Shown here one piece after another: positions 949 through 23,075 of a stretch of DNA of 24,397 nucleotides; within the stretch, counting starts at the first letter, position 1; every line of letters begins with the position of its first letter. A program made the translations under genes and the position numbers. The stretch is from Physocladia obscura. Taxonomy: Eukaryota > Chytridiomycota > Chytridiomycetes > Chytridiales > Chytriomycetaceae. Under the pieces are notes generated by a model, which was not told the DNA's origin, did not search any database, and saw nothing but the letters and a program-made list of their open reading frames with translations. The stretch lies in assembly GCA_027596945.1 (NCBI GenBank), contig JADGJH010000229.1, forward strand, positions 1 through 24,397, written 5' to 3'.

Positions 949-2364
949 TCAATAATCAAAAGCCCAACCATTCTTTGCCAAGAAGTCTTCAATTACTTCC
1001 TTCAAGGCAAGATTGGGAACGAGTTCAGATTCATGAAGTGGCTGTCTGGTCAAGGGGTCCCATTTCCCGATTTTTTGGAGATGCGACACGATTTCGGCGC
1101 GGTCATATGTTATTCCGCTCAGCGGGGATATCACGGGGTCTGTCATTATTTCAAATGATATTTTTCCAATGAATGCGTCGGGAATAGAGCGCTTCTGTTG
1201 TGATTATTTTTGTAGTTGATTTGTGAGTTGTGGTCATTGAATTTTTTTGTTCTTGCTTGTTCCACACGCGATATTTTGCACTCGCTGTGTTTCACTCGCT
1301 TCATTTGTTGTTTTTCGCATTACTCGCTACTCTTTATCTTTTGTTTTGCTCAACTTTTGTTCTGTTCACTAATTTTTTTTCTCACACCATTCAACAATTT
1401 GTTTTTTCTTGTTTCGCTGGAGGTAGCTATTTACCTTCGAATTTTCATCAGCTTGAACAAAAAGTGCCTCAATCTCGCTAACGCGTCTCTCCATAGCCCT
1501 CTCAATCTCGGCACGATCGTCATCAGCGGCCTGATCCTCTTCCTCAGACGCTTGTTGAAGCTGGGCAATCTGGCGATCGCGGTCACGCTTGACAAGACTC
1601 ACGAGATAGCGATGCAGTTCACCCTCGGCCAGACGGCGCTGGGAATCTGCGCGTTCGAAACGAAGTGCTTTTGCGGCGCGATATTTAGTTGCGATTTCTT
1701 CGGTGTACAAGGACTTTTGGGAGATGCAGAGATCGAAGGCGCGTTTGAAGCAGTTGATTGCGTCGCTGAGGCGGTGGTCGTTGTTGTGCGTTGGATTGTT
1801 TGCGTCGAGGAGGAGGAATGCCTGGGCTTTGTAGTAGAAGAGTTTGAAGAGGACGGGGTGATCACGAGACTCAGACCGTGAGTCACACAACTCGATGCCC
1901 TTGGTGCAGTCTTGGATGCAGGCGTCGGCGTCCGGAGTGTCGCGGCGAAGGTGGCACAGCGCCCTGTTGGAGTAATAAACGGGGTTGGCTGGGTTGCGGA
2001 TGATTGCCACGGAGTACGCTGTGATTGCGCGCTCATAGTCATGCTGTGCGAAGTAGGAGTTACCCTCCAACTTGGCCTGCTCGGCGAGCGACAACGATCC
2101 TGCGTTGCCAGTACCGTTAGTTGTTGCCGCAGAACTATTACTCGTACGCGGTATTGACGATTGTTGCTGAGAGTGTGGCTGTTGATTCGATTGCCGGCCC
2201 CGTGTCTGCGATTGCGATCGTTGATACTGCGGCGATGCCTGCGATGATGCGTGCGGTGGCGCTGACGACGACGCTGATCCCTGAGTTGTTTGCGTACCAC
2301 CCGATGCTTCTCCAAACGCCGGAAAGTTTGCCGTCAGATTCTGTAGGTTTGCGAGGAACTCCAT
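949..2364 (-). CDS. STUB1: CHIP/STUB1-like TPR + U-box E3 ubiquitin ligase
   Basis: Two exons, 2364-1435 and 1194-949, with a 240-nt GTAA..ACAG phase-0 intron, encode 391 aa. Residues about 93-215 form a three-TPR block starting LAEQAKLEGNSYFAQHDYER, the fold that binds Hsp70/Hsp90 tails. A charged helical linker with a Glu/Asp/Arg-rich stretch follows. Residues about 314-391 are a U-box, with DPVISPLSGITYDRAEI, WDPLTRQPL and the terminal WAFDY matching the CHIP C-terminus. The splice recreates KKRSIPDAFIGKISFEIM, as expected for the CHIP U-box entry. In this family the protein ubiquitinates chaperone-bound clients in the cytosol. It has a Ser/Gln-rich N-terminal extension of about 90 residues, making it longer than animal CHIP (about 300 aa). 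The open frame extends upstream to a TTG, but the first ATG is at 2364. Confidence 0.92.
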
Positions 2365-3046
2365 CTTGAGTTTTGAAATCTTTTGTTGATTTTTTATATT
2401 TGACAAATCAAATCAACTGTTTGCTTACGTAAATTGCCTTCACTAACGAAAAAAAAACCCGACTGAAGCATCCAACTGGTACGACTATTATATTTTTTAA
2501 AAAGCCTGGTTCAACTGTAATTGATATGGAGTCTCACGACGTTCTACTAAGACGCTCCTCAAGACACTTCATTTTTTCTCTTGATTTCGAATTTCTTTTC
2601 CAGAAACGTCTCCTTCAAAATCTCTTTATAAAAGTATCTGTGTTTTCTTTCTTTTGTGTTTATGTTAAACGCAGTCTTTGTAACTTTATTAAGTTTAACT
2701 TCTATAAACTCTTCGCTCCAATAGTAGTTTCATATACTCTTCTTGGTAAAAAACTATTGAGCAATTACATCGTCTTGGACTCTACTGGTGGGAGAAATTC
2801 CAATTGTAGAATTTTTGTGGTTACAGACTGTCAAGTTTAAATAAAAATTTACAAAGAGTAGCTAAAAACATAGAAAACGAATTAAATTAAATTAAAAAAA
2901 GGGAACAAATAATTTAAAAAGGAAAATAGATAAATGTAATTTTTCAAATATTCTATAAAAAAACAAAACCTTCTTTTCCATCTCCTTCTCATTTTTCAGG
3001 ATGGGCCGATCTTTTTACTTTTTTTTGAGAAATTGACTCTGAAAGG
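2365..3046. promoter_or_regulatory. Divergent intergenic region between CHIP-like and HMGR genes
   Basis: This 682-bp AT-rich spacer separates two divergently transcribed genes, so both 5' ends and promoters should lie here. A pyrimidine-rich tract followed by CAG at 2997-2999 looks like a splice acceptor and suggests a 5'UTR intron in the HMGR transcript. It is followed by a 12-codon mini-ORF (ATG at 3001, stop TGA 3034-3036) just before the HMGR start. The ORF at 2526-2840 has the composition of random AT-rich DNA and is not called. Confidence 0.5.
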
Positions 3047-6000
3047 ATGTTGACGTCAAAAGACACGGTAGGGCAACAGCAACAGGCACGACAAAACGGA
3101 GTAATACCAACATCAATCTGGTCCGGATTCCACAAAAAGGCGCTTCGAGAACGGCAGAACCAGTTGCGACTTGTGTATCCAGCACTGTTTAATTCTTCGT
3201 TAGGCATAATCAATAAGAATGGAACTACTCATGTATCCGCGAAACAACCAAAGTCACCAACTTCGCTGAGCTCTTTGACGCCCAACGATAGCACTGCCTC
3301 GCTGGCTGGTCTTGCTATTGAGTCTATTGAGGAATCACCCGTGTTTCCTGTTACAGGATTGGACGAAAAAGTCGCGGACAATATGATTGAGTAAAGTTTT
3401 CAACCAACAACCTTCCATATAAATATGTTCGTGCTTTTGATACCACATCTTGCTTATCTACGTAAAAAAACATCTTAAAAAACAGAAATTGCATTGGCAC
3501 AATGGGCCTCCCGGTTGGCCTCGCCCTAAACTTCATCATCAACGGTGCCCCAACCGTAATACCAATGGTTGTCGAAGAACCATCTGTTGTAGCCGCAGTC
3601 TCGGGTGCCGCCAAAACAATATCCTCTTCTGCTGGAGGATTCTTGGCATCAACATCGACCCGCAATATTATTTTCGCTCAGGTGCTTTTACTCGACGTTG
3701 CCGACATCCCAAGCAGTGTCGCGACTATTGAATCACGCAAAGCCGTGCTGATCGATGTCGCCAATTCGTTTGTACCGAATATGGTTGCGAGAGGTGGTGG
3801 GGTTGTTGATATTTCTGTGCGAGTTCCAACAAGGAAGGTGGAGCGCCCTCGGAAGGTTAATGAAGTTCGTATTTCGGCTTCTCCTTTTGATGGCGCGTCG
3901 TCATCGTCGTGGCTTGTTGTTCATTTGCATCTCGATGTTTGCGACGCTATGGGTGCGAATGCGGCATCGACAGTTGCGGAAGGTGTTGCACCGGTTCTTG
4001 CGGAATGGGTGAGGGGACGCGTCGGACTTCGGATTGTTAGTAATTTGTGTGTTGAACGACTTGCTAAAGTAATTATTTTCCTTTTTCTTTGTTTTTTTTT
4101 AATCGAAAAGAGCAATTATTAACATTATTAATTGCAAAAATTTGGAAGTCATCCTTCAAAATCCCCATCGCCAAACTCGCATACAAATCCTTCACTGGAC
4201 GTCAAGTCGCGGCTCGCATAATCGAAGCCGCAGAATGGGCCCAGGATGACCCATTTCGTGCAGCAACACACAACAAAGGAATTATGAACGGAATCGATGC
4301 TGTAGCAGTTGCTACAGGTCAAGACTGGCGCGCTATTGAAGCTTCTGCCCATGCATGGGCAGCGGGATGTGCACAATCAGCAGATACGCCACAATACCGT
4401 CCACTCACTCACTATTGGGTCGAATCCAACGATGGTGTACTGGATGAAACAAGCGACGATGGGCTCTACTTTTGCGGAGAGATGGAGATGCCAATATCCG
4501 TGGGGACGAAAGGTGGCGTTTTAAAAACAAATCCAGTTTATAAGTACACGTTGGGTATGATGGGAAACCCGGATTCTAAAACTCTGGCGATGGCGATGAT
4601 TTCTGTGGGGCTTGCCCAAAACTTTGCGGCTTTGAGAGCTCTGACAACAGAGGGTATTCAAAAGGGTCACATGTCGTTACACGCTAGAAATATTGCCATT
4701 GCTGGTAAACTTTTTGGTTTTCTGATTCTATGAAAATTGACAAAAAACAATAAAACAGCCGGTGCTCCTGCGCATGCCATCAATGAATGTGTAGCCTACA
4801 TGGTCGAATCGAATCGTGTCAACCAATCTGTTGCCAGAGAATATCTCGTCGCCCACGAAATTCATTCCACACTTATCAACCAAGAAACTCTTAACACCGA
4901 CCCGACAAAACACCCACCCCGTGCCCCATCGACGTTTTACATTGAAATTGCAAACCAACCATCACAACAACAGCAACAGCAAATAACCGAGCCAATAACA
5001 CTAAACGTTGCCTTTGAAACTCTTGGCCACAAACCAGTCCACCTCTCTCTTTCAGCATTATCGCCACCCTCGGATTTGTACACGCAGCTTTTTCAAGCCC
5101 GATTTGACTACACGTGGATATCATCCACGTTTTCGGTCCTCGACAAGATTGAACTGAGCACTGTTCCAGAGTTTCCAGCCCGCAGTAATCGTGGACTAGT
5201 CAAGAAATTGAAGGTACTGAGTGTTTTGATCAACATGCTTGGTCGGAGTATGAATGCACAGTGGCCCGGAGAGACTCGGCGGCTTGTGGATAAAATTGTG
5301 AAACGGGCAACTGTGCGAGGACGTGTTGATGCTGGATTTGAAAAAAGAGTTGGAATTACGAATGTGCTGCCTCCGCTTCCTCTTGTTGGTGACGCACGAG
5401 GAAAGACAGTGTCTTCGACAGCAGCTGCTACAACAACACGCGGATTTGATGCGCTACAGGTGGGTCGGCCACTGCTGCTTGCATTATGGCAAGTATTTGA
5501 ACTGCGTGTGTTGCAGTGGGTAGGCCACGAACTTTTAGCCCAAACTTTACTTGAAACACAACTCGAAGTTCTCAAAGCCCTTACTGAAGTTGATACACTT
5601 TATCGTTCTGGACACCGATCCAGTCCTCTCGCCAACCAGGTAACAGCTGCGGCCGCCAGCACGGCAAACATCCAAAGCGATGACACCACACTGTCGAGCA
5701 GCGAAGACGACACCGACGATGAGCCTCTCACAATCGGCAAAAAAGATGCAGTCGCCACAGCAGTACAACCCCCTGAAGACGCGGACGAAGTTATCAAAGA
5801 CCTGCACATAATAATCCACAAGCAGTCACGGCGATTCCAAACTGCACTGTTTTTGTTATGTGACGCGAGCAGCCACGACCCGAACCTACTCACGCCGCCG
5901 CGACTCCGGCTGCTTAAATCCCTCGGCGATCTAATGGCGTGGGAACAGATGTGTGCGCACGATATCAGCAAAAGTCGGCTTGCACGAGACATAGCCGCGT

Positions 6001-6461
6001 TAGTGTATTCTTCTTCCTCTTCAGTGGCGAGTGATGATAACGGAACTTTACTGGAGCTGGAGTATGCGATTAAAGACGGCAACGCGTTTTTGTACTGGCT
6101 TACAAGAACGATTGGTCAAGAGAGTATTAACAAGATCCTAGCGGCTGCGCTTGCATCTTTGGGAAGCACCGATGCAACGACGATCCGTGTAGCAGCATGG
6201 CTCCATAATAATGATGGAGAATACTCTGAAACGAGCGAAATTAGCAGAAACAATGTGTTGGCGGCGGTATTGCAGCTTGATCTTCATACAGTTTTCAAGA
6301 CTGAGATTGCAGGATTCTTGAGTGTGTCTAGTAAAGAGGGTGCGCTGGTGAAGACCATTCAAGAGGAAGCAGCCTTAGAGATTTTTAATAAGGATACGTT
6401 GTTGGGTATAACGAGACTGTATCGGGGGTATTATGGAGTAGACGAGTTTTTTTTAAAGTGA
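3047..6461 (+). CDS. HMGR: Class II (bacterial-type) HMG-CoA reductase with long C-terminal extension
   Basis: Four exons, 3047-3390, 3486-4068, 4149-4704 and 4759-6461 (introns of 95, 80 and 54 nt), encode 1061 aa. HMG-CoA reductase interconverts HMG-CoA and mevalonate. This is the class II type (Pseudomonas mevalonii MvaA-like), not the membrane-anchored class I enzyme usual in fungi. Visible signatures are GFHKKALRERQNQL near residue 27, ENCIGTMGLPVGLALNF (115-131), EEPSVVAA (Glu about 146), DAMGAN, HNKGIMNGID (Lys about 352), ATGQDW (Asp about 368) and GHMSLHARNIA (His about 487). All four catalytic residues are present. Splicing restores NIAIAAGAPAHA exactly. No membrane segment is seen. 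An N-terminal addition of about 50 residues is Ser-rich. Residues about 550-1061 form an extension containing APSTFYIEIA, a six-Gln run, and an acidic Ser/Asp linker (SSSEDDTDDE) between two helix-rich parts. I do not recognise a domain there. An in-frame TGA at 3026 supports the start at 3047. Confidence 0.9.
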
Positions 6462-13038: not shown

Positions 13039-14571
13039 ATGGGATTTGGTTAGCCATTCAATGAGGAAGCCTTCATTGCCCTTTGTTTTGCATCAAATCT
13101 GATCCGTCGTGAGCGCGTCGGAAGTGACGATAATGTACAGAGGGCTTGTTTGCTTTGTCTGTTGCGTATCTCCCAAAAAAATCCAGTCCAGGTTTATCAA
13201 AGAACCGGCTGGTCTCATGGAGATCCAACAACTCTGTCGTCTACCAGTCAAACCAACTTCCATTTTTTCTTTGGATTACTACTTTCCCCTATTCTTACAA
13301 GTGTGTGTTTGTTTGTGTGTACAGGAGACAGAGGAGGCAGAGGCGGTAGCGGCGGTCGCGGGGGCAGCAGCTTTGGTGCTCGAGGTGGCGGTGTTCAAAG
13401 AGGCGGTCGTGGTGGTGTGTACATGCCTTTATTTTGTATTGAATACCAAACACTTTTTTTCTTTTCTCTTTTACTTTGATAGGTGGCCGTGGAGGATTCG
13501 GTAGTGACCGTGGTAGTGATCGTGGCAGTCGAGGAGGTAAGATGACACTTTAAGAAGCGCAGTTTGAGACAAAAATTAGCAAAACGAGTATAGCTTACCT
13601 CTGACAATAAGCGACGCGAATGTAATTCAAAGCATAGCATAATAAAACAAACCAAAAGCCATATAGCTAAAAAAAAATTTATTTAGGTAGTCGTGGTGCA
13701 CCGAGAGGTGGCGGTCGCGGGGCACCAAGAGGCGGTGCACGAGGCGGACGCGGCGGTGGTGCACGTGGTGGCGGTCGTGGCGGAGCTAGAGGCGGCGCAA
13801 AAGTAGTCATTGAACCACACAGACATGAAGGCGTCTTTATTGCGCGTGGAAAAGAAGATTTGCTCGTCACAAAAAACTTAGTTCCTGGTGAATCCGTTTA
13901 TGGTGAAAAGAGAATTAGTGTCGATGTAAGTCTCCCCTCCCAACTCCGTTTTCATCAAGAATAACAAAATAATAATAAAATAGAATACTGACGGCACAAA
14001 AACCGAATACCGCGTGTGGAACCCGTTTCGATCCAAACTTGCTGCCGGAATCCTCGGCGGCCTCGACCATATTCACATCAAACCCGGCGCCAAAGTTCTT
14101 TACCTGGGCGCCGCCAACGGAACTTCCTGCTCGCATGTAGCAGATATCGTCGGCCCAACGGGCCTCGTCTATGCGGTCGAATTCTCGCACCGGTCGGGCC
14201 GCGATCTGATCAATATGGCCAAGAAGCGCACGAACGTGATTCCCATTATTGAAGACGCGCGGCACCCACACAAGTACCGCATGCTTGTCGGAATGGTCGA
14301 CGTTGTGTTTGCGGACGTGGCGCAGCCAGATCAGGCTCGAATCATCACAATGAATTCGCACCTGTTTTTGAAGCAGGGCGGGCATATTGTGATATCCATT
14401 AAAGCGAATTGCATTGATTCGACTGCGGTTGCGAGTGCGGTGTTTGCGGACGAAGTAAAGAAATTGCAGGAGGGGAAGGTAAAGCCACAGGAGCAACTTA
14501 CGCTTGAGCCCTATGAAAGAGATCATGCAATTGTTGTTGGTGAATATCGTGCTGCTAAGAAGGCAAAGTGA
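13039..14571 (+). CDS. FBL: Fibrillarin, snoRNA-guided rRNA 2'-O-methyltransferase
   Basis: Five exons, 13039-13048, 13325-13414, 13483-13536, 13687-13925 and 13984-14571, encode 326 aa, close to the usual fibrillarin length. The first 80-odd residues are an RGG/GAR domain ([17 protein letters not shown] at the start). The methyltransferase domain follows: [48 protein letters not shown], the AdoMet site [53 protein letters not shown] and [14 protein letters not shown]. It acts in nucleolar box C/D snoRNPs with Nop56/58 and Snu13. The 10-nt first exon (M-G-F-G) is inferred from its phase-1 fit and from fibrillarins that begin MGF; its donor, GTTAGC, is weak. Introns are 276, 68, 150 and 58 nt. 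Confidence 0.93.
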
Positions 14572-15146: not shown

Positions 15147-15884
15147 TTATAAAAAAACTTCTGAAAAGACTTTGAATTGGATCTTCCCCTTAATTGCAAA
15201 CACTACGTAATCCAGACAGTGTTCGTAGCATTTCAGGATCGTTTTAAAGCATGCTGCTACCTCATCGGCGTCCGTTCCAAATGCACCGCAACCCCAAGCG
15301 CCCAGTATCAAAACGCGGTGTCCATATGCGATTAAAACGCGAAATACTCCATCAATCTTCTGCTGCAAGTACTCTTTTGATGCACCGCCTCCTCCTCGCA
15401 ACGCAGCAGCTACGACAGAACACCAAAAGGGCGATGCCACGTCAAAGACAAACACTTGAGGAATGTAGATTGCACCAAACATATTGACTGGATAGGCAGA
15501 GTCCTGAACCGATTCCAATTGAAGACCGAGAGATGACGTGCGACACAAATGCTCCTCTTGCGTTCCCTGTTGCCCGCCCAGCCATCCGCCACCAGCATTT
15601 GTATCACTAGCAAAGTCGAGAACGAGGACACGATCAACGGCGCATTGCGTTTGAAGTAACGCCACGCATTGCCACGTGTCGCATTGCAAAACGTTAATTT
15701 GGCATTGTGGTTGTTGGGTGGGGGAGTGATATGCTGGTGGTGCTGGCAGAATACGTGTGTCTGGAATGGAAACGATCGATTTGGAGTCGAGCGCCTTTTG
15801 GAGACGTTTTTTTTCGCTTGCGGGCACAACTTTGCGCATGGCGTCCTCGACGCGGCGTCGAACGTCGAAACGTTTGCCGCTCAT
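15147..15884 (-). CDS. Bacterial-type poly(ADP-ribose) glycohydrolase / macrodomain-like protein (TIGR02452-like)
   Basis: A single exon encodes 245 aa. The diagnostic block is VLVLDFASDTNAGGGWLGG then QGTQEEHLCRTSSL: a GGG at residues 98-100 followed eight residues later by QEE (109-111), the PARG catalytic signature. YPVNMFGAIYIPQVFVF and VLILGAWGCGAFGTD, the ADP-ribose-binding macrodomain loop, come after it. This family removes ADP-ribose polymers or related ADP-ribose adducts. The start is the ATG at 15884, immediately preceded by a textbook acceptor (TTTAAATTTGCAG). Either a 5'UTR intron ends there or an upstream coding exon was missed. It is divergent from the 99-aa ORF, 225 bp away. 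The likely localisation is cytosol or nucleus, as no signal is visible. Confidence 0.8.
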   Translation of the reverse strand: MSGKRFDVRRRVEDAMRKVVPASEKKRLQKALDSKSIVSIPDTRILPAPPAYHSPTQQPQCQINVLQCDTWQCVALLQTQCAVDRVLVLDFASDTNAGGGWLGGQQGTQEEHLCRTSSLGLQLESVQDSAYPVNMFGAIYIPQVFVFDVASPFWCSVVAAALRGGGGASKEYLQQKIDGVFRVLIAYGHRVLILGAWGCGAFGTDADEVAACFKTILKCYEHCLDYVVFAIKGKIQFKVFSEVFL

Positions 15885-16109
15885 CTGCAAATTTAAATGA
15901 GATTGCTCGCTGCCGCAGACGTGGAGCAGTCGAATCACAAAGAGTGGGCAAGTTTTTGTAAATGCCCCCGCAACGCACAGATATTTTGATATAAGGTTTT
16001 AAAATCCTGAAATTAAGCTTGAAAACGCCGTGGCACAGTCAGTACACTCTCTGCCACACACTTTTTTTTTTGAAGGACAAAAAAACGTTCGTCCAAACCT
16101 CACCAAAAA

Positions 16110-18006: not shown

Positions 18007-18435
18007 GCAAACATATTTGTTTAATTTAAGGGCAAACTATGGTTTTCTTTGCAATTTGCAGGGTCACGTTTATTCCTCACATGATTGTATTTAGTGATCT
18101 GGATTTATTTGACATATATTCCGCTTTCTTGTCGATTGATAAAAATAATATTATCCCCACTAGAATTCCGTGTGCAATTGCAGCTTCAAAAAAGGGACTT
18201 GAAAAACGGTATCATGAAATCTTTTGCCGTTTTCCTAAAATCTAAAAAGTAATTCTACTAGGATGGGGGTGGTGATGTTTTTCCACGCTAAAAACAGGAC
18301 CATCAGTCCATGATGCGGATGAACATATGGAGGAATTTCACTTGTTTCAGAATTTGTTCCAAAAAAGTCCAAAAGTCCAAAGATTTGTGGCTTGATTACC
18401 CTGTTTTTGTTTCAGCGAATCAGTGGATTAAATTG

Positions 18436-19440
18436 ATGTCGACGGTTCCTGCTGTCGAGCGGCCATCCACAGATGAATACTTCTGGGCAACGTATCTGCT
18501 CTTCTTTCCGACAGCATTAGTGGGCATGCTACTTTCAGGACCGATGGTGTATTCTGTGCTGCGTGAATATCGCAAACTAATCAAATCGCGTTTGGACAAA
18601 GTCGTTTTGATACTGCTGATAATATCATTTGTGTTTTCTACATCAACTTGTGTGCGCTATGTAGTTATTCTCTTCTACGCTTCCAATTGGATGAACCAAT
18701 TTGAGGCTGCAATTTCCATCTGTTCGTTGGTGTGGTTCTTGGGTTCAAATGTCCTCTTGGCTCTTACTCGCTATTTTATTGTCAAAGAGAGGCCGCCACC
18801 ATCTACACGAAAGTTTGTGGCCCTCGTTTTACTTATCGAATCGGCTTTCTCCTGTGTTCTGATTTGGGTTTTTTCCACTGCGGTCTGTGCTCTTGCCAAG
18901 AAAATTCGTCTTACTAATGCAACAAATTTTCAGACTTCTCAAAACCGAACGAATCCAGACCCGTATCCGCAATTTATGAAACAACGCATCGCTTTCTACA
19001 TCATTTGTGCACTGACGGCAGTTCCTGGTCTTGTTGCAATTATTACAATCTACTCATCGACGTATAATATTCTCTCCCGGAGACTCCAAGCGACAATGTC
19101 TGCACCACTAGAAAATCATGTTCGTTTACTTCTCCAAAAACGTGTTTTAAAAACCACAATTGCGATGTCGTCTGGCACAGTTATTTGCTATTCACCAATG
19201 GCGTTAGCGATAATTGTGTTTGGTGTGATTTTAAAAACGCCTCTGCCGGATTGGGGGCGCGCCATAGTTACAGCATTTGCGCTGTTTGATACTATTGTCA
19301 CACCGTGCCTTTTGTTATATTTAATGCCAAAGATTCGGCATGCTGTTGCCGCTCGGTGGTGGTGCTATTCAAGGCTCAAGGCTGGCTCATTTACTTTTGA
19401 TTCTGAAGATTATGAAGAGGAAGAATCTTATTCTTTATGA
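18436..19440 (+). CDS. Rhodopsin-like 7TM receptor (GPCR), copy 1
   Basis: Exons 18436-18882 and 18934-19440, with a 51-nt intron containing a TACTAAT branch-like site, encode 317 aa. Seven hydrophobic segments fall at about 18-42, 55-82, 90-115, 126-148, 168-196, 220-248 and 258-282. Class A-like marks are LTRYF at the end of TM3 (110-114, in place of D/E-R-Y), C-Y-S-P in TM6 (234-237, cf. C-W-x-P), and DTIVTPCLLLY in TM7 (cf. NPxxY). A helix-8-like RHAVAARWWCYSRLKAG and an acidic Ser/Tyr tail follow. The intron position is identical in copy 2. The intron is stop-free and a multiple of three, so unspliced RNA stays in frame. The start is set by alignment with copy 2. Ligand unknown; it should be a plasma- or endomembrane receptor. 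Confidence 0.75.
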   Translation: MSTVPAVERPSTDEYFWATYLLFFPTALVGMLLSGPMVYSVLREYRKLIKSRLDKVVLILLIISFVFSTSTCVRYVVILFYASNWMNQFEAAISICSLVWFLGSNVLLALTRYFIVKERPPPSTRKFVALVLLIESAFSCVLIWVFSTAVCALAKKIRLTNATNFQTSQNRTNPDPYPQFMKQRIAFYIICALTAVPGLVAIITIYSSTYNILSRRLQATMSAPLENHVRLLLQKRVLKTTIAMSSGTVICYSPMALAIIVFGVILKTPLPDWGRAIVTAFALFDTIVTPCLLLYLMPKIRHAVAARWWCYSRLKAGSFTFDSEDYEEEESYSL

Positions 19441-20966: not shown

Positions 20967-21952
20967 ATGTCAGAGATCGAACAACCAGCGGCAGACAGCA
21001 TCTTCTGGGATATATACCTGCTATATTTACCAACAGCCGTAGTTGGGCTATCACTATCTGGACCAATGTTGTATTCTGTGCTGGCCAACTTCAATTCGAT
21101 GGTCAAGTCCCGTCTTGAAAAAGTTGTCTTGATTCTTCTTTCAATCTCTTTCTTTTGGTCCACTGCAACAGTATTTCGTCTTGTAATTCTGCTATTCTAT
21201 GCTTCAAATACGTTGAGCCAGTTTGACGCTGCCTTAACAATAATTGCACTCGTGTGGTTCCTGAACTCGAATGCACTACTTGCTTTGACTCGCTATTTTG
21301 TCTTTAAAGAGTGGCCAGAGGGTTCTACCAGAAAGTATCTGGCGTTTAGTTTGTTGATTCAGGTGTTCTCTACTTGCGTTTTGATTTGGTGTTTTTCTAC
21401 CACAGTAAGTTTTTATTTCATTTCAGGATAATGATTAAAATGAGTTGGTTCCAGACAACCAAAAACAGATTCAATCCGGATCCCCAGTTCAAAGCTCAAT
21501 TAATGATTTTCTGGATCGTGTGCTTGTTAAATTCTGCACCATGCATTGTAACAATTATTTCGGTATATGCAACAACATATTTTCTCCTCACTCGCCGACT
21601 TAAAAGCACAATGCCATCGCCGCTGGAAATTCAAGTTCGTTTGATGCTTCAGAAACGGATCTTGAAGGCAACAATTATGATGTCGGCCGGCACTATTCTC
21701 TGTTACTTACCAATGGTTATCACAGTTTTTGTTGGGGGGATATTAAAAAGACCATTGCCGGATTGGGCAAAAATCTTTGTGACGGAGTTTTGTCTGTTGG
21801 ATACTGTTATCACTCCCATTATTTTGCTGTACTTCATGCCAAAAATTCGCCATGCAGTTGCTTCTCGATGGTGGTGTTTTTCGAGGCTTAAAGCTGGATC
21901 GCTTGTCATTGACTTCGAATCTGATCTTTCAGATGGATCTTATTCTTTTTGA
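20967..21952 (+). CDS. Rhodopsin-like 7TM receptor (GPCR), copy 2
   Basis: Exons 20967-21404 and 21455-21952 flank a 50-nt intron (GTAAGT..TTCCAG) at the same codon as in copy 1. They encode 311 aa, collinear with copy 1 throughout. Shared blocks include SGPMLYSVL (TM1 end), KVVLILL (TM2), ALVWFLNSN and LLALTRYF (TM3), VLIWCFSTT (TM4), PLEIQVRLMLQKRILKATI leading into TM6, PLPDWAKIFVTEF, DTVITPIILLYFMPKIRHAV (TM7/helix 8) and RWWCFSRLKAGS. The tail diverges but ends SYSF against SYSL. TM6 has C-Y-L-P. The ATG at 20967 aligns with the copy 1 start. It is a tandem duplicate in the same orientation, and its ligand is unknown. Confidence 0.78.
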
Positions 21953-22358
21953 GTCTCATAATTGCATGTTATTTTACGTTGCTCATACTTGAATGATATA
22001 AACATATTTCTATTTTTCAATTCTTGACAGTGATACGATGTCTGCCTCAGACCAATTTCTTTGCAACATTAATTATGAAAGAAAAGTCGCTATGGGGATT
22101 TCTAGATGTATAATTAACGCAGACCTGAACAGTGGGTCTGATATGGTTCCGGACGGAGTTGGGAAAGTTAAAATTTATTTTGTGTAAAAAAAAAAGTCAA
22201 ACACATCAATGATAGACTGAAAACTCACTGTCATATTAAAGCGTCATTAAAATTGATCTTAAAACAGCGCCAGTTGCGAATCAATTTTTTGGGAGTTTTC
22301 GACTTCAATTTTTGACTTTTTAAAAAAGTTTATTACAAACTTTTTCTTATTACAATCG
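21953..22358. other. Intergenic spacer between receptor copy 2 and pseudogene
   Basis: About 400 bp of AT-rich sequence. It should hold the 3' end of copy 2 and the relic promoter of the third copy. No ORF or structured repeat is seen. Confidence 0.55.
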
Positions 22359-23075
22359 ATGAAAACACTTGAATATCCTCAGTCGGATGTGAATTTTTGG
22401 GTCATTTAATTTCTGTTTGCCCCAACTGCTGTGTTATGCGTCTTTCTTTCCGCCTTGGAACTGTGGGTAGGGATAAATAATAGGAAAACAGTGGTGACAT
22501 CTCGGATCGACTACATCGCCATCATGTTATTGGTGACTTCGTTTTTCTGGACTGCAACCTTCTTCTGCCGTGATATTTTTATGTTATTTTTCTCCGATGC
22601 AGCCTACGATAAAGTTGGTACCGCGTTACAATATATTTCATTCATCCGATTTTAAACTGCAAATGTCTTTCTCGCTTTAGTTCGATTTTTTATTTGTAAT
22701 GAGCGCTCTGAAAATGAATCCCAGAAGTTTTTTGTCTTTGGGAGCTTCGTTTCTTTTCTTTCAACGATCGGCATTATTTGGGTGTTTTCAACTACAGTAT
22801 AAAGACAAAACAAAATTTATAATCATTGTAATCAACAAAACAGGCTTGTATAAATAAATTAAGTTGATTTTATTGCTATATGTTGTTTCATCATATTTTT
22901 CGGATTCAGGTCAGTCATTGCAATCTATACAATTACATCTATTGTTTTATGGCGTTGCCTTGCCCAAGAAACAACTTTTCTTCTGAATATCCACCTTTGC
23001 CTGATTTTACAAAAACAATACCTGAAAGTAATGGTACTAATATCTTCTGGGACTGTACAATCTATTGCAACGTGA
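22359..23075 (+). pseudogene. Rhodopsin-like 7TM receptor, copy 3, pseudogene
   Basis: The frame starts at an ATG in the paralogous position (MKTLEYPQSDVNFWVI) but meets TAA at codon 17 (22407-22409) and again at 22653-22655. Between and after these stops the receptor pattern persists: FLFAPTAVLCVFL (TM1), IDYIAIMLLVTSFFW (TM2), TANVFLALVRFFI (TM3) and IIWVFSTT (TM4), followed by a GT at the conserved intron position. The second-exon remnant from about 22869 keeps SVIAIYTITSIVLW (TM5) and LILQKQYLKVMVLISSGT (start of TM6). It then hits TGA TAA at 23073-23078. TM7 is not recognisable. Confidence 0.75.

Follow-up and report, generated by a model that had tools for sequence, protein, structure and literature searches.

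We have analyzed a gene for HMG-CoA reductase (HMGR) in the chytrid Physocladia obscura (Chytridiomycota, Chytridiales). The gene lies in a window of 24,397 bases that comprises an entire contig (C229) of an assembly of 21.76 Mb in 1222 contigs. It extends from 3047 to 6461 on the forward strand, with four exons separated by three GT-AG introns, and encodes a protein of 1061 amino acids in which a class II HMGR is followed by a long C-terminal domain that is predicted to adopt the fold of a class I terpene synthase. Excision of the introns rebuilds the family sequence (MIENCIGT, ERLAKSSFKIP, IAIAAGAP), and all 1061 residues of the spliced protein are identical in the NCBI protein HK100_004726 of Physocladia obscura, i.e., the NCBI gene model agrees with ours. 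An earlier note, made from the letters of this DNA alone, had placed an intron-bearing class II HMGR of a fungal genome between 3047 and 4800. The three predicted introns agree with the NCBI model, and the identity of the product to HK100_004726 together with the eukaryotic neighbors marks this as a true chytrid contig and not a contaminant. The proposed interval covered the HMGR motifs, but the coding sequence continues well past 4800: exon 4 stays open to 6461, adding ~535 residues beyond the HMGR domain; relatives have the same region, and the terpene-synthase-fold domain that it contains had been missed.

Residues ~83-530 constitute a class II HMGR, as the earlier note had claimed. The class II model TIGR00532 scores 287.2 bits (cut-off 259.95), while the class I model TIGR00533 gives 33.7 bits against a cut-off of 441.8, i.e., a negative test for the class I catalytic domain. 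PF00368 (309.9 bits) is the sole Pfam match in the protein. The class II family scores are far above chance. The motifs EEPSVVAA (aa 145), CDAMGAN (267), HNKGIMNG (350) and GHMSLHARN (482) are present, with the catalytic residues E146, D268, K352, H483 and H487 all in place. In 262 aligned proteins the catalytic columns contain Glu in 258, Lys in 262, Asp in 173 with Glu in a further 85, and His in 261 and 257. Among the eukaryotic proteins, 77 of 182 have Glu in place of the Asp of DAMGAN (e.g., P0133, P0160, P0128 and P0118), as do 8 of the 80 prokaryotic ones; oomycete and Arcella-group rows are among them, and Streptococcus pneumoniae has Glu as well.

Class II HMGRs have a C-terminal three-helix flap, as defined in the accessible part of PMC10070635. 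Such a flap is found in the structure model, with helices at residues 479-494, 502-511 and 517-538 (479-538 in all), and the extension starts immediately after them. There is no Pfam match to a sterol-sensing membrane region in the protein, and PF12349 gave no match in the entire assembly.

In the Ruegeria HMGR, Asp154, located 63 residues past the catalytic Glu91, accompanies the use of NADH, and four NADP(H)-type class II HMGRs have Tyr or His at this position (PMC12292504, in its accessible part). We located this position from its distance to the catalytic Glu and from the alignment. It is occupied by Cys in 160 of the 182 eukaryotic proteins, Val in 15, Ile in 3 and Ser in 2, with 2 gaps, and by Asp in none; the P. 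obscura HMGR has Val. In the prokaryotic set His, Asp or Tyr predominate there (Asp in 26 of 80), and the 18 bacterial proteins in which HMGR is fused to a kinase (see below) all have His. The absence of the Asp that marks NADH use makes biosynthesis likelier than mevalonate breakdown, and we infer that the P. obscura enzyme uses NADPH.

Table 1. Exons, introns and protein features of the fused HMGR gene, in window coordinates
Feature	Position	Strand	Basis
Exon 1, N-terminal arm including SIWSGFHKKALRERQ	3047..3390	+	Splice model, identity to HK100_004726
Intron 1, 95 bp, GT..AG	3391..3485	+	Excision rebuilds MIENCIGT
Exon 2, class II HMGR; catalytic Glu (EEPS, 3574-3579) and Asp (CDAMGAN, 3943-3945)	3486..4068	+	Motifs, family profiles
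Intron 2, 80 bp, GT..AG	4069..4148	+	Splice model
Exon 3, class II HMGR; catalytic Lys (HNKG, 4275-4277) and GHMSLH histidines (4668-4670, 4680-4682)	4149..4704	+	Motifs, profiles
Intron 3, 54 bp, GT..AG	4705..4758	+	Splice model
Exon 4, remaining flap, then C-terminal extension to stop	4759..6461	+	Splice model, HK100_004726
C-terminal domain (aa 551-1061) with disordered inserts and without a Pfam match; predicted class I terpene synthase fold	4926..6458	+	Predicted structures
Arg853, candidate diphosphate-sensor arginine	5832..5834	+	Arg in 119/121 homologues, median 42 residues upstream of HD motif
HD(x)R..RD motif, His895-Asp905, two extra residues here, at place of terpene synthase NSE	5958..5990	+	Asp896 in 121/121

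The C-terminal domain

Evidence that the C-terminal half of the protein would form a class I terpene synthase fold comes from two predicted structures and, weakly, from a profile alignment. The test for an all-alpha terpene synthase fold was positive on the modeled domain, and the structural matches listed include isoprene synthase (3n0f), Sat1646 (7e4n), sesquisabinene synthase (7e9r) and delta-cadinene synthase (3g4d), over 255-269 residues. The model also contains large disordered inserts. The 50 PDB matches listed were filled by HMGR, and the absence of prenyltransferases among them carries no weight. The Z baseline of the structure-search tool for helical models and the scattered acidic patterns in the C-terminal domains weaken somewhat the functional proposals made below.

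Pfam gave nothing consistent on the extension in 47 homologues at E values up to 10. A PDB sequence search with a 47-row profile returned no terpene synthase among the matches listed, and one weak, unrelated match to the extension (cyclodipeptide synthase, E 1.3). The viral structure library gave nothing at E 0.001 or better, with a trans-prenyltransferase at E 0.53. Searching with the P0057 extension recovered at least three proteins, i.e., P0057 and two relatives. Identification of the extension as a GHMP kinase was rejected; the domain profile found no match in the 80 prokaryotic loci, and the profile score of 17.7 is at background level. For the profile comparison with terpene synthases, a motif filter kept 18 of 32 loci and dropped 14; those retained are mostly of one two-domain type, and several show the same gene.

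The NSE, DDxxD, Arg and Tyr positions of terpene synthases bind metal or diphosphate. The canonical NSE/DTE motif NDxx(S/T)xxxE is found in none of 121 C-terminal domains. At its place there is a site of the type HDxxRxxRD, in a register supported by the profile alignment, where the successive letters are H in 115 of the 121, D in all, R or K in 112, R in 110 and D or E in 95. The position of the NSE serine is the one that has become Arg or Lys in 112 domains. The DDxxD motif shows no conservation. A match to D[DE]xx[DE] is present somewhere in 30 of the domains, and within the stretch where it would be expected from spacing in five, two of them ahead of the helix and three just past it (P0039, P0103 and P0127). 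The helix at the expected place has Asn in 119 of the 121. In the P. obscura protein there is no DDxxD near this helix, and its only copy, DDTDD, falls in a low-confidence insert.

The arginine ahead of the HD motif is present in 119 of 121 homologues, at a median distance of 42 residues. Bacterial terpene synthases have an Arg 44-46 residues ahead of NSE in 17 of 18 cases, and we take their diphosphate-sensor Arg to lie ~46 residues before that motif. A Tyr is found at the C-terminal end of the domain in 108 of 116. Metal ligands that are lost, with basic residues that are kept or added, suggest a pseudoenzyme that binds. Because the canonical Mg-binding motifs are missing, the domain is probably not a terpene cyclase.

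Copy number, pathway and neighboring genes

In a six-frame search of the P. obscura assembly with PF00368 this gene alone was matched. The earlier note had called for a search of the genome for a class I gene. The class I HMGR model gave one weak match across the assembly, to this same gene, and no class I gene was found. With 919 residues of the protein as query, the assembly gave this gene plus a brief stretch of contig C49 (E 1.4e-6, three stops). The C49 sequence (13720-13860; 1501-1641 of locus L133) is a decayed piece of the C-terminal domain, of ~36-48 codons around the HD motif and 57-67% identical, and no HMGR domain was found beside it. It aligns to the C-terminal domain of this gene, which rules out a simple acidic repeat; it is a dispersed gene relic and not a second HMGR.

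Genes of the mevalonate pathway both upstream and downstream of the HMGR step are present in the assembly. HMG-CoA synthase was recovered at two loci in pieces of ~40 residues, which indicates that the genome search detects intron-split genes. Mevalonate-PP decarboxylase gave a match above cut-off, mevalonate kinase one under cut-off near a contig end, and a TIGR01787-type cyclase appeared as several pieces of one gene, each under the family cut-off. Squalene epoxidase (PF08491) had no match in the assembly although this cyclase is present; the step may be carried out by an alternative epoxidase, the gene may fall in an assembly gap, or the cyclase may act on squalene. PF19086 gave no match across the assembly, but the control was likewise silent, so that the absence of other terpene synthases does not follow. 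In Phytophthora sojae, the accessible part of PMC9635365 describes one HMGR gene, and 80 ug/ml lovastatin lowers mycelial growth by 31.9%. P0133 of P. infestans is a member of the present eukaryotic class II family, and for this reason the single HMGR of P. sojae probably belongs to it as well.

Elsewhere in the window, an exon with TPR/CHIP_TPR_N and, after it, a separate one for the U-box (952-2406, reverse strand) correspond to a CHIP/STUB1-like ubiquitin ligase. A fibrillarin gene lies at 13300-14571, with its Gly/Arg-rich N-terminal part apparently split by introns (the Pfam match is to the part at 14014-14571), and a protein with a microbial-type poly(ADP-ribose) glycohydrolase domain (PF10021) at 15147-15938 on the reverse strand. 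Three tandem copies of an apparent multi-pass membrane protein occupy 18310-19440, 20967-21952 and 22347-23057. The first has no Pfam match; relative to it the second is ~59% identical, and the third is 30% identical and seemingly decayed.

Evolutionary history

A tree of the HMGR domain was calculated from 52 of the 182 listed eukaryotic class II proteins and all 80 fetched prokaryotic loci, with support from the Shimodaira-Hasegawa-like approximate likelihood ratio test (SH-aLRT). The eukaryotes, which include fungi, Capsaspora, Corallochytrium, oomycetes and Arcella (Amoebozoa), lie on one side of a branch with SH-aLRT 100 and a stem of 0.73; the adjoining position of Myxococcota is weak (49). 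The earlier note had inferred an old horizontal acquisition with later gain of introns. The grouping of the fungal proteins with those of Capsaspora, Corallochytrium, Arcella and oomycetes does not support such an acquisition by a fungus, and points to a gene older than the fungi.

The tree of the C-terminal domain contains 44 rows of 51 planned, 7 being outside the complete-domain set, and several long branches were flagged. The fungi form one group (99), fungi join two holozoans and one further protein (97), and there is an Arcella group (98) in which Arcella is the only named amoebozoan. The protein P0118, from a 426 kb record labelled Schistocerca gregaria, clusters with Arcella; it probably stems from a protist, perhaps an amoebozoan, that contaminated the locust assembly. 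Since the two trees are broadly alike, HMGR and the C-terminal domain seem to share one history. In the HMGR tree the Mortierella-type rows cluster with those of Jimgerdemannia (90), which fits a single loss of the domain; Mortierellomycota appear to have lost it, and Jimgerdemannia probably has too.

The fused HMGR thus looks ancient and not recently borrowed. Either it was already there in an ancestor that opisthokonts, amoebozoans and oomycetes share, or it was passed between them very early; if the HMGR gene was bacterial in origin, the transfer would have been into an early eukaryote, or followed by later movement between eukaryotes. Class II HMGR has been reported in sponges, Capsaspora and some fungi, with both classes in Capsaspora, and a transfer into the opisthokont ancestor was proposed (PMC4784904, in its accessible part). 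Our sampling of Arcella and oomycetes would date the acquisition earlier than that ancestor, or else require transfers from eukaryote to eukaryote. That class II HMGR occurs in opisthokonts, in an amoebozoan and in oomycetes alters the history of the enzyme in eukaryotes, where both classes may have existed side by side from a very early stage.

Proposed function and comparison with known systems

In sterol synthesis HMGR is the classic point of control, and it is also the target of statins; its control in eukaryotes has been described via the membrane sterol-sensing region. The gene studied here encodes an HMGR that is the sole copy in this assembly, and its role is likely to be biosynthetic. 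We propose, with a probability of about 0.5, that it is the main and probably only biosynthetic HMGR of P. obscura, in which a C-terminal pseudoenzyme biases closure of the flap via a prenyl diphosphate. The soluble class II enzyme would reduce HMG-CoA to mevalonate for sterols and other isoprenoids. The three-helix flap of class II enzymes must close for catalysis, and with the new domain directly behind it, binding of a ligand by the terpene-synthase-like domain could help or hinder that closure. The ligand may be an end-product prenyl diphosphate, and the domain would then be a soluble counterpart of the sterol-sensing membrane region of class I HMGR.

The extension might instead be structural or serve in targeting (oligomerization, membrane association or docking of partners), with no binding of ligand. 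Mortierellomycota and the Jimgerdemannia relative keep the HMGR domain without it, so that catalysis can do without the extension, and the large disordered inserts also fit. Yet the extension is conserved from amoebae to fungi, and its highly conserved residues fall by alignment at positions that presumably line the diphosphate end of terpene synthases, unlike a plain scaffold; we consider this explanation rather doubtful. If the domain were still an active, non-canonical isoprenoid-diphosphate cyclase or transferase, with other metal ligands, the protein would be bifunctional and could channel the flux from HMGR. The complete loss of canonical NSE and the unconserved DDxxD make this unlikely, as does the Arg or Lys at the NSE serine position in most of the domains, where a basic side chain is expected to repel Mg.

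A degradative role was also raised by the earlier note. The name of the NCBI model TIGR00532 contains the word 'degradative', and bacterial catabolic HMGRs do belong to class II. Against this, the NADH-type Asp is found in no eukaryotic protein, the biosynthetic genes are present with no other HMGR found in the assembly, and the growth of P. sojae, with its one HMGR gene, is slowed by lovastatin (PMC9635365, accessible part). Mevalonate breakdown is thus very unlikely. Finally, a bacterial-type enzyme whose closest solved structures are bacterial could suggest that chytrids acquired it recently by horizontal transfer, or that the assembly is contaminated. Such an origin is rejected as improbable in the extreme, given the introns, the eukaryotic neighbors (fibrillarin and the CHIP-type TPR and U-box protein), the same architecture in many zoosporic fungi, and the two trees, with fungi a supported group in that of the C-terminal domain.

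The pseudoenzyme proposal can be extended, more tentatively, to the whole lineage. Early eukaryotes may possibly have had a second, soluble HMGR with its own terpene-synthase pseudoenzyme, which would sense prenyl diphosphates and gate the flap, giving end-product control without membranes or sterols; chytrids, and probably oomycetes, would still have no other HMGR, and lineages in which class I took over would have dropped it. There is a large eukaryotic HMGR lineage in which no sterol-sensing region was found, and where a partner of predicted terpene synthase fold sits on the moving flap. Should that partner sense prenyl diphosphates, it would represent a separate means of feedback control, one that accounts for how the pathway could be regulated in chytrids and oomycetes. 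Class II HMGR in such eukaryotes was partly known already, and the larger finding is its joining to a putative terpene synthase fold, of which no description was found among the titles and abstract openings listed by searches of the open-licence PMC literature.

The P. obscura protein resembles the class I HMGRs of animals, plants and Dikarya in its reaction, its presumed place in making sterols and isoprenoids and the possession of an extra region on the catalytic domain. It differs in that no sterol-sensing region was found, the extension is C-terminal and of another predicted fold, and the class I score is far under cut-off. Compared with class II HMGRs (TIGR00532; structures from Pseudomonas mevalonii, Delftia and Streptococcus pneumoniae) it adds a C-terminal domain of ~510 residues. 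Unlike bacterial genes it is eukaryotic and intron-bearing, and its Val at the cofactor position, where most eukaryotic relatives have Cys, sets it apart from the residues that prevail in prokaryotes.

The C-terminal domain resembles class I terpene synthases in predicted fold, in the place of the motif as given by the profile alignment, in the Arg ~42-46 residues ahead of it and in the Tyr near the C-terminus. It lacks a conserved DDxxD and any Pfam score, has HDxxRxxRD in place of NSE, and is fused to HMGR. The sponge, Capsaspora and fungal class II HMGRs of PMC4784904 belong to the same eukaryotic group, and Capsaspora is in the present tree; the C-terminal domain goes unmentioned in the accessible part of that report, which placed the transfer in the opisthokont ancestor.

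A parallel in organization is provided by the bacterial HMGR-kinase fusions, found at 18 of the 80 prokaryotic loci (L023, L024, L027, L028, L030, L032, L037, L040, L057, L058, L063, L071, L073, L078, L082, L083, L086 and L094). These proteins, of ~750 amino acids, form one clade (SH-aLRT 100) and come from Pseudomonadota, Nakamurella, Planctomycetota and Calditrichota. Their partner is a GHMP kinase, probably mevalonate kinase, by Pfam on two of the 18 (L023 and L082), and it matches the eukaryotic domain only at the background profile score given above. The two systems share an arrangement in which a class II HMGR is followed at its C terminus by a partner from isoprenoid metabolism.
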